From Chrysemys picta bellii (Eukaryota > Chordata > Testudines > Emydidae), in contig NC_088791.1 of the NCBI RefSeq assembly GCF_011386835.1, positions 125,526,943 to 125,590,942 of the forward strand: a DNA stretch of 64,000 bases, written 5' to 3'. A program made the position numbers and the translations under genes. How positions within the stretch are numbered: position 1 is the first letter of the stretch; the number at the start of each line of letters is the position of its first letter. The notes beneath the pieces are model-generated. The model was not told the origin of the DNA. It was given only the letters and a program-made list of their open reading frames with translations, and did no database searches. Shown one piece after another: positions 5,489 to 29,958 of the stretch.

Positions 5489-6268
5489 ATGGAAGAGGAT
5501 AAAGTAGGGGCCAGATCAGACGAGAGACATTCACATAAAAAAGAATCCAATACATCAGAAAAGGGCAGACAAATAAACAGTGACAAGTTTTTAAAGTGCT
5601 TGTACACAAATGCTAGAAGTCTAAATAATAATATGGGTGAACTAGAGTGCCTTGTGTTAAAGGAGGATATTGATAAATAGGCATCACAGAAACCTGGTGG
5701 TGTGAGGACAATCAATGGGACACAATCATTCCAAAATATATCGGAAGAACAGAACAGGTCGTGCGGGGAGGGGGAGGAGAGAGGGGAAGTGGCACTATAT
5801 GTGAAAGAAAATGTAGAATCAAATGAAGTAAAAATCTTAAGTGAATCCATATGTTCCATAGAATCTCTATGGATAGTAATTTCATGCTCTAATAAGAATA
5901 TAACATTAAGGATCTATTATCAACAACCTGACCAGGACAGTGATAGTGATGATGAAATGCTAAGGGAGATTAGAGAGGCTATCAAAATAAAGAACTCAAT
6001 AATAGTGGGGGATTTCAATTACCCCCATATTGACTGGGAACATGTCACCTCAGAACGAAATGCAGAGACAAAATTTCTCGATACTTTAAATGACTGCTTC
6101 TTGGAGCAGCTGGTACAGGAACCCACAAGGGGAGAGGCAATTCTCGATTTAGTCCCGAGTGGAGCGCAGGATCTGGTCCAAGAGTTAACTATAACAGGAC
6201 CGCTTGGAAATAGTGACCATAATATAATAACTTTTAACATTCCTATGGTGGGAAGAACACCTCAGTAG
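5489..6268 (+). pseudogene. CR1 ORF2, endonuclease part (decayed)
   Basis: This is the amino-terminal endonuclease/exonuclease/phosphatase-fold domain of the CR1 replicase, which nicks target DNA to prime reverse transcription. Visible motifs are YTNARSLNNN near the start, GDFNYPHIDW (catalytic Asp/Asn block) and SDHN (catalytic His block) near the end. A stop codon lies at 5678-5680, inside the region that should read into the TETWW motif, and another at 6266-6268. The frame is otherwise continuous and is the same frame as the start of the linker at 6278. Confidence 0.82.
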
Positions 6269-6277
6269 CCCAGCACT

Positions 6278-7232
6278 GTGACATTTAACTTGAGAAAGGG
6301 GAACTATGCAAAAATGAGGGGGTTAGTTAAACGGAAATTAAAAGGTACAGTGACTAGAGTGAAATCCCTGCACACTGCATGGACACTTTTCAAAGACACC
6401 ATAATAAAGACCCAACTTAAATGTATACCCCAAATTAAAAAACACAATAAAGGAACTAAAAAAAGAGCCACCATGGCTTAACAACCATGTAAAAGAAGCA
6501 GTGGGAGATAAAAAGGCATCTTTTAAAAAGTGGAAGTCAAATCCTAGTGAGGTAAATAGAAAGGAGCATAAACGCTGCCAAATTAAGTGTAAAAATGTAA
6601 TAAGAAAAGCCAAGAAGGAATTTGAAGAACAGCTAGCCAAAAACTCAAAAGGTAATAATAAAATGTTTTTTAAGTACATCAGAAGTAGGAAGCCTGCTAA
6701 ACAACCAGTGGGGCCCCTGGACGATCGAGATACAAAAGGAGCACTTAAAGACGATGAAGTCATTGTGGAGAAACTAAATGAATTCTTTGCTTCAGGCTTC
6801 ATGGCTGAGGATGTTAGGGAGATTCCCAGACCTGAGCCGTTTTTTGTAGGTGACAAATCTGAGGAATTGTCACAGATTGAGGTGTCACTAGAGGATGTTT
6901 TGGAATTAATTGATAAACTTAACAGTAACAAGTCACCAGGACCAGATGGCATTCACCCAAGAGTTCTGAAAGAACTCAAATGAGAAATTGCGGAACTATT
7001 AACTATGGTTTGTAACCGGTCCTTTAAATCGGCTTCTGTACCCAATGACTGGAAAATAGCTAATGTAACACCAATATTTAAAAAGGGCTCAAGAGGTCTA
7101 ACATCAGTACCCGGCAAATTAGTTGAAACAATAGTAAAGAATAAAATTGTCAGACACATAGAAAAACAAATGGTTGGGCAAAAGTCAACATGGTTTCTGT
7201 AAAGGGAAATCATGTCTTACTAATCTATGAGA
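6278..7232 (+). pseudogene. CR1 ORF2, linker and start of reverse transcriptase
   Basis: This is the central part of the replicase. The linker runs in one frame to 6481, then shifts to the frame at 6501-6983, which includes FFKYIRSRKPAK and the RT motif NSNKSPGPDGIHP. A TGA at 6981-6983 interrupts it. It continues through VPNDWKIANVTPIFKKGS. About ten codons are missing after this point, where CR1 proteins carry the NYRPVS motif, before LTSVPGKLVETI. It ends at the Penelope-type insertion. The antisense 204-aa frame over 6338-6952 is a shadow. Confidence 0.82.
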
Positions 7233-7406
7233 GGTTTCAGAGTATCAGCCATGTTAGTCTGTATCCGCAAAAAGAACAGGAGTACTTGTGGCACCTTAGA
7301 GACTAACAAATTTATTTGGGCATAAGCTTTCGTGGGCTACAGCCCACTTCTTCGGATGCATCTAGTGGAAAAATACAGTAGGAAGATTATATATATATTA
7401 TATATA

Positions 7407-7447
<41 letters not shown>

Positions 7448-7641
7448 AACATGAAACAATGGGTGTTACCATACACACTATAAGGAGAGTGATCAGTTAA
7501 GGTGAGCTTTTATCAGCAGGAGAGAAAAAACTGTTTGTAGTGGTAATGAAAATGGCCCATTTCCAGCAATTGACAAGGAGATATGAGGAACTGTAAGGGG
7601 GGGGGAGGGAAGATAAGCATGGGGAAATAGTTTTACTTTGT
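7233..7641 (+). mobile_element. Penelope-like element terminal repeat inserted in CR1
   Basis: The segment starts GGTTTCAGAGTATCAGCC and contains GGAGTACTTGTGGCACC, a sequence I recognise as the terminal repeat of reptile Penelope-like retroelements (memory, not searched). It splits the CR1 reverse transcriptase frame, which resumes at 7642. It includes TA- and CA-repeat tracts. Its minus strand around 7318-7358 folds like a hammerhead ribozyme core (see findings). No Penelope coding sequence is present. No clear target duplication is visible, which is common for these elements. Confidence 0.62.
7408..7444 (+). repeat. (CA)n microsatellite
   Basis: About 18 perfect CA units, preceded by a TA-rich stretch at 7389-7405, inside the Penelope-like insertion. 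Confidence 0.97.
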
Positions 7642-8762
7642 GTTCTTTGAAGGGGTCAACAAACATGTGGACAAGGGGGATCCAGTGGACATAGTGTTCT
7701 TAGATTTCCAGAAAGCCTTTGACAAGGTCCCTCACCAAAGGCTCTTATGTAAATTAAGCTGTCATGGGATAAGAGGGAAGATCCTTTCATGGATTGAGAA
7801 TTGGTTAAAAGACAGGGAACAAAGGGTAGGAATAAATGGTAAATTTACAGAATGGAGAGGGGTAACTAGTTGTGTTCCCCAAGGGTCAGTCCTAGGACCA
7901 ATTCTATTCAACTTATTCATAAATGATCTGGAGAAAGGGGTAAAAAGTGAGGTGGCAAAGTTTGCAGGGGATACTAAACTGCTCAAGATAGTTAAGACCA
8001 AAGCAGACTGTGAAGAACTTCAAAAAGATCTCACAAAACTAAGTGATTGGGCAACAAAATGGCAAATAAAATTTAATGTGGATAAATGTAAAGTAATGCA
8101 CATTGGGAAAAATAACCCCAACTATACATACAATAATTTAGCTACAACTAATCAGGAAAGAGATCTTGGAGTCATCATGGATAGTTCTCTGAAGACGTCC
8201 ATGCAACGTGCAGCGACAGTCAAAAAAGTAAACAGGATGTTAGGAATCATTAAAAAGGGGATAGAGAATAAGACGGAGAATATCTTATTACCCTTATATA
8301 AATCCGTGGTATGCCCACATCTTGAATACTGCGTACAGATGTGGTCTCCTCATCTCAAAAAAGATATACTGGCATTAGAAAAGGTTCAGAAAAGGGCAAC
8401 TAAAATGATTAGGGGTTTGGAATGGGTCCCATATGAGGAGAGATTAAAGAGGCTAGGACTTTTTAGCTTGGAAAAGAGGAGACTAAGGGGGGATATGATA
8501 GAGGTATATAAAATCATGAGTGATGTGGAGTAAGTGAATAAGGAAAAGCTATTTACTTGTTCCCATAATATAAGAACTAGGGGGCCACCAAATGAAATTA
8601 ATGGGCACCAGGTTTAAAATAAATAAAAGGAAGTTCTTCTTTACACCGCGCACAGTCAACTTGTGGAACGCCTTGCTTGAGGAGGTTGTGAAGGCTAGGA
8701 CTATAACAAGGATTAAAAGAGAACTGGATAAATTCATGGAGGTTAAGTCCATTAATGGCTAC
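7642..8762 (+). pseudogene. CR1 ORF2, reverse transcriptase core and C-terminus
   Basis: The longest CR1 frame here (7640-8533) holds the reverse transcriptase palm: motif A VFLDFQKAFDKVPH, motif B VPQGSVLGPILFNLFIND, then motif C. Motif C reads FAGDTKLL where active CR1 has FADD, so one of the two catalytic aspartates is replaced by glycine. Next come the thumb/connection region (HLEYCVQMWSPH, KVQKRATKMIRGLEW) and SLEKRRLRGDMIEVYKIM. A TAA at 8531-8533 interrupts it. The remaining C-terminus continues with shifts to a natural-looking end near FMEVKSINGY at about 8762. Confidence 0.87.
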
Positions 8763-26940: not shown

Positions 26941-27721
26941 AAGGTAGAAGGGTTTCCACATGGTCAAAGAATAGAGTATTTCCTCTGCAGTGGTGCTAGA
27001 GTGAGTGTAAATTCACAGACAATATGAATTTTTAAATGCATTTCATTCCGAGCAGCCTCCTCTGAGCACATAAAGGAAACTTACAAATGTGAAAAATTGC
27101 CTCAGTGCCATATAGGACTAAGATGCTTTCTTTAGTAGAACTATAAGACAAAATACCTCCTTCTCTGAAAATAGAAACAATATGCCTTTCCTCTAAGCAT
27201 AATTTTCTGTCAAAGTACATATATCAGTGGAGTATTATCTGTTTTAATATGTTATTCCTATATATTTAATCACTTACATTTCAAAGAACTCTGTAAATCA
27301 GGAGCTGACTAGGTTAACGTAACCTAGAGCAGGATCAAAGTACTCAAAGAAACCTTTAGCCAGACAGCTTTTGTCCAGCCTGTATGAAAACAAGGCTCAG
27401 TTGGTCTTGCTATTTGAGCAAATAACACTGGTCTACAATTTTTGAGAAGTCGTCTGCTTCAGAGAAAAAATATGATATTTATTATGTATTTTGATGTGCT
27501 GAATTCAAAAATGACAATTAAAACAACTGATTGGCTACTGTTTCTAAGATATTTAAGTTTTTACATTTTATGTCTATCTACACAATATAGATAGAGTTTT
27601 AATCAGAAATTGTAAACCTAGGTCTTTTCATGTGTTTATGGTTGCTTTACATGATAATATTTCACCTGTCCTGTTTATGTAACACTTTAAAAATCAGCAA
27701 AAGGGTTATATAAATAAAATT

Positions 27722-27730
27722 TATTATGAA
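27722..27730 (-). promoter_or_regulatory. Candidate poly(A) signal of the transposase-like gene
   Basis: AATAAA reads on the minus strand about 40-45 bases after the inferred TAG stop (27768-27770), in an AT-rich context. Confidence 0.4.
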
Positions 27731-27767
27731 ACAAAAGGCAAAAAACTATTATGTACATAGTTTAGTC

Positions 27768-29451
27768 CTATTCAGTGTCTACTCGGCGCTTCTTGGCTTG
27801 TCTCTTGTATTCATTAAATGGAGCATCTCTTGTCACTGTCCAGCAATAGTCTGCAAGCATTGATGGGCTCCATTTGCCCTGATAGCGTTTCTCCATTGTT
27901 GCAATGTCCTGGTGAAATTGCTCGCCGTGCTCGTCGCTCACTGCTCCGCAGTTCGGTGGAAAAAAAATCTAGATGAGAGTGCAAAAAATGTATCTTTAGT
28001 GACATGTTGCAATCAAGGCTTTTGTATGCCTTGAGGAGGTTTTCCACCAACAACCTGTAGTTGTCTTACTTGTTGTTTCCGAGAAAATTTATTGCAACTA
28101 ACTGGAAGGCTTTCCATGCTGTCTTTTCCTTGCCACGCAGTGCATGGTCAAATGCATCATCTCGAAGAAGTTCACAAATCTGAGGACCAACAAAGACACC
28201 TTCCTTTATCTTAGCGTCACTTAATCTTGGAAATTTTCCACGGAGGTACTTGAAAGCTGCTTGTGTTTTGTCAATGGTCTTGACAAAGTTCTTCATCAGA
28301 CCCAGCTTGATGTGTAACAAAATCTTCCTTGATTCAACAAATGGTGGATGCTGAACACTTTTCCTCCCAGGCTCCAATGACTGTCGGAGTGGCGAATCTT
28401 TCTTGATGTAGTGGTAATCTCTTGCACGACTCTCCCATTCGCAGAGAAAACAGCAGTACTTTGTGTATCCAGTCTGCAGACCAAGCAAGAGAGCAACAAC
28501 CTTCAAATCGCCACAAAGCTGCCACTGATGTTGGTCATAGTTTATACACCTCAAAAGTTGTTTCATGTTGTCATAGGTTTCCTTCATATGGACTGCATGA
28601 CCAACTGGAATTGATGGCAAAACATTGCCATTATGCAGTAAAACAGCTTTAAGACTCGTCTTCGATGAATCCATGAACAGTCTCCACTCATCTGGATCGT
28701 GAACGTTGAGGGCTGCCATCACACCTTCGATGTTGTTGCAGGGTACAAGATCACCTTCCATGAAGAAGAATGGGACGAGATCCTTTTGACGGTCACAGAA
28801 CATGGAAACCCTAACATCACCTGCCAGGAGATTCCACTGCTGTAGTCTGGAGCCCAACAGCTCTGCCTTACTCTTGGGTAGTTCCAAATCCCTGACAAGG
28901 TCATTCAGTTCACCTTGTGTTATGAGGTGTGCTTCAGACGAGGAGGATGGGAGAAAATGTGGGTCCTGTGACATTGATGGTTCAGGACCAGAAGTTTCAT
29001 CCTCTTCCTCTTCCTCGTCTGACTCAAGTGAGAATGATTCTGGTGCATCAGGAACCGGTAGTCCTTCTCCGTGGGGTACTGGGAGTATAGCTGATGGAAT
29101 GTTTGGATAATGCACAGTCCACTTTTTCTTCTTTGACACACCTTTCCCAACTGGAGGCACCATGCAGAAGTAACAATTGCTGGTATGATCTGTTGGCTCT
29201 CTCCAAATCATTGGCACTGCAAAAGGCATAGATTTCCTTTTCCTGTTCAATCACTGGCGAAGATTTGTTGCAGAAGTGTTGCAGCATATGTGTGGGGCCC
29301 ACCTCTTGTCCTGATCTCCAATTTTGCAGCCAAAAGAAAGGTGATAAGCTTTCTTAACCATAGTGGTTATACTGCGCTTTTGTGATGCAAAAGTCACTTC
29401 ACCACAAACATAGCAGAAGTTATCTGCACTGTTCACACAAATACGAGGCAT
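27768..29451 (-). pseudogene. Decayed transposase-like gene of an uncharacterised family
   Basis: One frame starts at ATG 29449-29451 and runs with three lesions: TGA at 29251-29253 (a tryptophan-like position), TAA at 28066-28068, and a frameshift in an A-run at about 27960-27967. The end is TAG 27768-27770, about 560 codons in all. The first 66 residues are Cys-rich (CYVC, HICC), and CYFC follows after the first stop, which suggests a zinc-binding N-terminus. In the 394-codon middle part there is a basic KKKK stretch at residues 40-43, an acidic run at 79-84, a strand-like LFMDSS...SLKAVLLHNG (D194), CGDLKVVALLLG (D248), a CCFLCEW Cys cluster (266-270) and HIKLGLMKNFVK. The final part contains DEHGEQFHQD. 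I recall similar uncharacterised proteins in insects and other animals. A DDE/D RNase-H-like fold is my inference. Confidence 0.6.
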
Positions 29452-29588
29452 CTCTGCTCACTTTGGCTAAACAGAAATGTGTCCCTTTGCAAAATCAAAC
29501 ACTGACAAATAAAAGAGCATGACACTGTATGATTTCTAGAGCTGATATAGGGCAATTTGTTCAGCAGAGTGATGTAAGCTTTGTTATG

Positions 29589-29670
29589 ATTGCATCATCC
29601 ATGACTTCTAGGAATAACATGATGCAATTCATATCATGTATGACGCAATACCAGCTTCAGATTGCATCAT
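29589..29670. promoter_or_regulatory. Cluster of four ATTGCATCAT / ATGATGCAAT boxes
   Basis: The 10-mer ATTGCATCAT lies at 29589-29598 and 29661-29670. Its reverse complement ATGATGCAAT lies at 29619-29628, and a one-mismatch copy at 29640-29649. All four lie within 82 bases, 138-220 bases upstream of the transposase-like gene start. TGATGCAAT is the composite C/EBP-ATF (amino-acid response) site, so regulation by ATF4-type factors is possible. Alternatively these are subterminal transposase-binding sites. Confidence 0.55.
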
Positions 29671-29958
29671 TCATCGTTTTGCCTAAAAAGCAAGTACTGT
29701 CCAAACCCAGTCATAGATTTATTCATAGATCCAGTCAAAGATGTATTTTAGTCATTTCTGGTTTAAATTGAGATCCCTTCCCTTTATAACTCACTTATCC
29801 TCCACCATTCCCAAGTCAAGGGTCGTATATACTGACCCAATAGCATATCTTGAAAACTAGAGCCAATCAACAATTTTAAGCATCATTTTCATTCTCAGTG
29901 ACCCAGAATTAGTAAAGTTTGACTACATTTATTTCAGAAGCATTTTGGCTGTAGATGG

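Follow-up and report, generated by a model that had tools for sequence, protein, structure and literature searches.

A decayed copy of a repeated, likely Chapaev3-type DNA transposon in the painted turtle genome

What is the roughly 2.5-kb block bounded by inward-reading TCTACA hexamers in a 64,000-nucleotide stretch of the painted turtle (Chrysemys picta bellii) genome (GCF_011386835.1, NC_088791.1, positions 125,526,943 to 125,590,942; hereafter the window), and is it a kind of transposon that has not been described before? A first-pass annotation, made from the letters alone, had placed the block at 27432–29955 and proposed a possible undescribed DNA transposon family with a single transposase-like gene. 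We are highly confident in reading the block as one decayed member of a repeated DNA transposon family, which likely falls within the Chapaev3 group. The family has CACTG ends and 3-bp, mostly TWA (TAA or TTA), target duplications, and it carries a single gene for a predicted RAG1/Transib-like Asp-Asp-Glu (DDE) transposase, an enzyme that would mobilise it by cut and paste. Repeated copies with defined ends and 3-bp duplications, together with one 564-codon frame, bear out the proposed transposon and its single gene. The family is real and well marked, ordinary in kind, and no new superfamily.

Searching the genome with the block gave 41 listed matches, with 40 scored of 3604 first-look candidates (a candidate figure rather than a copy count). 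Once two match rows that were pieces of one copy are merged and the row for the window is set aside, 39 other copies remain; the copies sampled are the best-scoring 40, among which older copies are under-represented. When aligned with the window copy, 34 of the 39 were full length, ending in CACTGG... and ...GCAGTG, and the end statistics cover the 35 full-length copies among the 40 that include the window's (L019, L021, L030, L034 and L043, which are cut or interrupted, were excluded). The family element is 2550 bp long, with consensus ends CACTGGTCTACA ... TGTAGAGCAGTG that match at 11 of 12 bases once one end is inverted. One- or two-base variants of these 12-bp ends occurred in 9 of the 34 other full-length copies, and both CAC and GTG were kept in 29 of them (exceptions L016, L022, L027, L035 and L041), with the window copy lacking the right one. 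Three copies were found to be interrupted by other sequence, L043 by about 690 bp, L034 by about 1350 bp and L021 by 113 bp, and the insertion joints of L043 carry an apparent 12-bp repeat.

Exact 3-bp duplications lay directly outside the ends of 30 of the 35 full-length copies, the exceptions being L013, L020, L022, L041 and the window copy, while at the 12 remaining offsets between -6 and +6 matching triplets appeared in only 0–3 of 35. The duplicated triplets were TAA (13), TTA (11), AAA (2), TTT (1), CTA (1), GAA (1) and ATA (1), so that TWA accounts for 24 of 30, and the duplicated target was preceded by A in 23 of 30 cases and followed by T in 26 of 30. Many copies with TCTACA ends and 3-bp duplications had been named in advance as the support to look for, and they are present, although with ends shifted 6 bp outward. 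Transib, which makes a 5-bp target duplication, and hAT, which makes an 8-bp one, were both rejected on this feature, as the flanks match over 3 bp.

The window copy spans about 2.53 kb (27426–29955) on the minus strand, the strand being that of its transposase gene, and its right end falls short of the last 6 bp. TCTACA does read inward at both ends, at 27432 and 29955, but the true left end is the CACTGG at 27426, 6 bp outside the position first proposed. The left terminal inverted repeat, CACTGGTCTACA, occupies 27426–27437 on the plus strand and matches the consensus right end at 11 of 12 bases. What remains of the right repeat is the inward TCTACA at 29950–29955 (minus strand), the outer CACTGC of other copies being gone; each of the other 34 full-length copies continues here with GCAGTG (in variant form in L020, L022, L027 and L042), a hexamer that the window copy no longer has. 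TGG triplets had been reported outside both ends and are indeed there, but they are no target duplication, because the left one is part of the CACTGG end; the right-hand outer TGG is unique to the window copy among the 35 full-length copies. The TAA at 27423–27425, with no strand assigned, is likely the left half of a TWA duplication, the right half of which is not recognisable in this copy. The approximately 120 bases of imperfect inverted similarity described behind the ends are probably real but weak: scored behind the first 12 bp, the 19-copy consensus gave a local score of 92, where 200 simple shuffles reached at most 81.5.

The majority sequence of the 35 copies holds a single minus-strand frame of 564 codons, and 5 of the 35 full-length copies keep it open, counted from stop to stop, over 560 codons or more, while it is broken in the other 30. 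The window gene, at 27768–29451 on the minus strand, matches this frame but is itself broken, interrupted by stop codons at 29251–29253 and 28066–28068 and a 1-base insertion near the 3' end, with 3 and 9 bases missing through two in-frame deletions; its longest open piece, 394 codons at 28069–29250 (minus strand), lies between the two stops. The motifs first quoted for one minus-strand gene are all present, all on that strand, but the gene is damaged and its DEHGEQFHQD ending stands in a different frame from the rest. LFMDSS (consensus LFIDSS; 28663–28680) and CGDLKVV (28495–28515) carry the first and second candidate catalytic aspartates, and CCFLCEW (28435–28455) contains the CFLC that forms the C(2)C motif of the family protein. 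The LH motif, PPLHIK in the consensus, lies at 28306–28323, where the window copy has lost both prolines and the histidine is invariant in a 31-row alignment; HFLHSH (27973–27990) is the H(4)H motif. DEHGEQFHQD (consensus DEHGERFHQD; 27906–27935) holds the likely catalytic glutamate. P0001, a 534-residue ENA protein with 23 member sequences, matches the turtle consensus at every one of its residues and thus provides an independent check of that consensus. It is encoded on a 2558-base ENA contig, which suggests that the sample contained turtle DNA or that some other host carries an almost identical element.

Does this protein fall outside the known transposases? In the 31-row alignment, with P0001 numbering, Asp 232 and Asp 286 were invariant and Glu 481 and Glu 484 nearly so. 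The structure model placed Asp 232 in a strand (227–233) and Asp 286 just after one (282–285), consistent with the two strand-borne aspartates noted at the outset, and both glutamates, which are alternative candidates for the catalytic residue, at the start of a helix (481–496). The fold comparison list was headed by Transib and RAG1, and the transposase is accordingly predicted to adopt an RNase-H-like fold nearest to these two; the RNase-H fold with acidic residues that had been suggested as a check was recovered as a prediction, with two aspartates and candidate glutamates conserved. The likeness to Transib (HzTransib) and RAG1 is one of predicted structure, with identity to the turtle transposase of only about 13%, a 5-bp duplication as opposed to 3 bp in the turtle family, and CACAATG ends as opposed to CACTG. 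On the basis of C(2)C and H(3-4)H motifs, the available text of PMC12730594 puts Chapaev in one group with EnSpm, Mirage, Transib and RAG1, an arrangement that agrees with the predicted Transib/RAG1-like fold.

Sequence libraries returned little. Three pieces of the window gene had no Pfam match at an E-value of 1, the 31 alignment rows matched no Pfam transposase domain at E 0.1 (two stray weak matches concerned one member each), single and profile searches of PDB sequences found nothing with an E-value below 0.1, and Rfam gave no match. Among viral contigs, 600 stretches fitted a pattern, none coding for a relative. PIF/Harbinger elements also make TWA-type 3-bp duplications, and the TWA in 24 of 30 duplicated copies would suit such an element; the CACTG ends, the presence of only one long frame, the lack of a Pfam transposase domain in the 31 rows and a predicted fold closest to Transib and RAG1 speak against it and make a PIF/Harbinger origin extremely unlikely.

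The assignment that we favor instead, Chapaev3, draws on published descriptions. The available text of Zhang et al. 2014 (PMC4079192) ascribes CAC/GTG ends to Chapaev elements, along with three motifs, C(2)C, LH and H(4)H; those of the Chapaev3 kind make TWA duplications and are always inserted between A and T. The turtle family has the CAC/GTG ends, the 3-bp TWA duplication and all three motifs, and its DDE residues lie within an RNase-H-like domain, as in Chapaev3, though that fold is a predicted one; A before and T after the target appear as a bias rather than the "always" of that source. Hosts overlap as well: Helobdella robusta and Lethenteron lampreys appear both in the legend of the Chapaev3 tree in the same paper and among the present relatives. 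We therefore regard the turtle family as likely Chapaev3, set beside the other Chapaev3 families by their published descriptions.

An undescribed superfamily that has merely Chapaev3-like ends would explain why neither Pfam nor PDB offered a credible sequence match and would accommodate the weak inverted similarity that extends more than 100 bp behind the ends. Against such a superfamily, the ends, TWA duplication, A/T flank bias and all three motifs of the CACTA-Mirage-Chapaev (CMC) type fit Chapaev3 as described in PMC4079192, as do the overlapping hosts, and we consider it very improbable. The idea of an undescribed transposase type therefore did not survive, since its ends, duplication, insertion-site bias and motifs are published Chapaev3 features; the superfamilies excluded when the protein was said to match none of them had omitted the CMC group. 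A clear match to a named superfamily, which the first-pass annotation had listed as evidence against its own proposal, thus exists in features and predicted fold but not as a Pfam or PDB sequence match.

Within Chapaev3, the closest comparison is with Merrow (Chapaev3-1_PM), which is found in lampreys, some fishes and a dragonfly and which, in lampreys, is 2451–2455 bp long with a 562-residue transposase (78 + 484) in two predicted exons; its reading frames came from gene-prediction programs, and most other Chapaev3 transposases have a single exon (PMC4079192, in the text available). Merrow and the turtle family resemble each other in element length (the turtle element, at 2550 bp, is about 100 bp longer), in transposase length (562 and 564 residues) and in the lamprey host genus, as the turtle family has a relative in Lethenteron reissneri. 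They differ in the turtle host and in that the turtle frame is unbroken, as in most other Chapaev3, and because of this one open 564-codon frame we file the family as Chapaev3 and not, for the present, as Merrow. The Lethenteron reissneri element is presumed to be Merrow, and comparison of the proteins and of a frame-shifted stretch suggests that the turtle family is close to it. Garfield and Conan, likened here by description, share the TWA duplication and motif set with the turtle family, and the Garfield transposase, at 556 residues, is of similar length to the 564 codons found here. Their hosts are different: insects and a bracovirus for Garfield, tenrec and anole for Conan.

Three protein searches at E-values of at most 0.001 returned 2098, 1061 and 3275 relatives, and the named hosts among the best 120 of each include lamprey, tortoise (Gopherus flavomarginatus), frog, leech, firefly, moths, psyllid, fruit fly, spiders and sea slug. 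Relatives in insects and other animals had been put forward from the start as a hint of wide spread or horizontal transfer, and such relatives are present, with a close one in lamprey. Where the two are in frame, the Lethenteron reissneri gene model and the turtle consensus had identical residues at 94 of 109 and at 296 of 330 positions. In a frame-shifted stretch of the model, 29 of 32 residues matched the turtle's other frame, whereas the true frame matched at only 3 of 9 aligned residues; such agreement in a meaningless frame requires similarity between lamprey and turtle at the DNA level. One further relative, P0269, is encoded on a 716-base contig labelled Klebsiella pneumoniae and carries a piece of the family protein with 64% identity to P0121 over 95%; it is probably animal contamination of a bacterial assembly.

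A 72-protein tree, built by a quick method from the window's open piece and 71 of 240 proteins, with the Shimodaira–Hasegawa-like approximate likelihood ratio test (SH-aLRT) as sole support, joined four turtle rows, the lamprey and two other proteins in a set of 7 (SH-aLRT 99). The lamprey row entered with its 32 frame-shifted residues masked as X and its unmatched tail removed, the long-branched P0170 and P0203 are of unsure placement, and five rows, the tortoise included, fill less than half of the columns. The frog fell in a set of 8 with leech and others (97), which the firefly joined in the next larger set (94), apart from the turtles and lamprey; the vertebrate members thus do not form one group.

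Vertical inheritance of a Chapaev3 family from the lamprey–turtle ancestor has in its favor that presence in lamprey, two turtle lineages and, distantly, a frog is no proof of transfer by itself and that the lamprey was compared as protein. This history is nonetheless highly unlikely given the 29 of 32 agreement in the frame-shifted stretch, the clustering of the frog protein with leech and firefly, and turtle copies that lie only about 1% from their majority outside CpG. We suggest that the family likely entered by horizontal transfer between animal lineages, the natural reading of these data; horizontal transfer has already been argued for Merrow in other hosts in the available part of PMC4079192. 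Even chances attach to a more specific scenario, in which a Chapaev3 line near Merrow passed between lampreys and freshwater turtles, with a possibly separate entry into tortoises, so recently that whole-frame painted turtle copies survive and could still be mobile.

The copies record a star-like burst and a later decay that shows no sign of selection, because variant bases are mostly private (708 in one copy, 92 common to two and 52 to three or more) and the three codon positions differ alike (1.10, 0.87 and 0.83%). Divergence from the majority was 0.9–1.9% without flanks, and outside CpG the mean Kimura two-parameter distance was 0.0102 (0.0061–0.0168). CpG sites of the 35 full-length copies were off the majority at 9.5%, versus about 1% elsewhere, as expected of methylated repeats. 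A domesticated, transposase-derived host gene might be imagined here, since the painted turtle NCBI gene models LOC101953070 and LOC103306399 contain the transposase protein. With many copies flanked by duplications, no excess of third-position changes and a frame broken in 30 of 35 full-length copies, we assign that explanation only a minute probability. Substitution in turtles runs at roughly a third of the human rate (PMC4054807, in the text available), and with human rates as generally cited the divergence of about 1% would place the burst very roughly 10–35 million years ago, a range too wide to tell a single invasion of painted turtles and tortoises from two separate ones.

By this account, the transposase would bind the CACTG ends of the element and excise it, perhaps, by analogy with Transib and RAG1, through hairpins; it would then join the element to a target opened with a 3-bp stagger, most often at an A-TWA-T site. 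The family may have come into turtles by horizontal transfer and undergone a burst of multiplication that began with few source copies, the resulting copies decaying since then without selection. The interest of the turtle family lies in its host range, as turtles now likely join the hosts of a group of transposons noted for jumps between distant animals. It also supplies full-length, star-like copies, some with open frames, of an element whose enzyme is predicted to be structurally akin to RAG1. Members of the transposase family are annotated as "uncharacterized" or "hypothetical" in the gene sets of several animals, and naming the family would clean these annotations.

In the available text of literature naming Chapaev together with turtle or tortoise (PMC7397244, PMC5745447 and PMC6740152), no report of Chapaev in turtles was found, though Repbase or supplementary tables may well contain a turtle Chapaev3 entry; in these sources, respectively, Chapaev is extinct in anole, appears in a reference only, and is represented by Garfield in insects. 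The word turtle has zero occurrences in PMC4079192, and neither Chapaev nor CMC occurs in the main text of the paper on the painted turtle genome (PMC4054807), of a survey of vertebrate transfers (PMC7070016) or of a report of hAT transfer into turtles (PMC11008031).

Elsewhere in the window, at 5702–8533 on the plus strand, we detected pieces of a retrotransposon of the long interspersed nuclear element type, with an endonuclease (PF14529, E 9.1e-14) and a reverse transcriptase (PF00078, E 1.6e-23), which we take to be CR1-like by motif.
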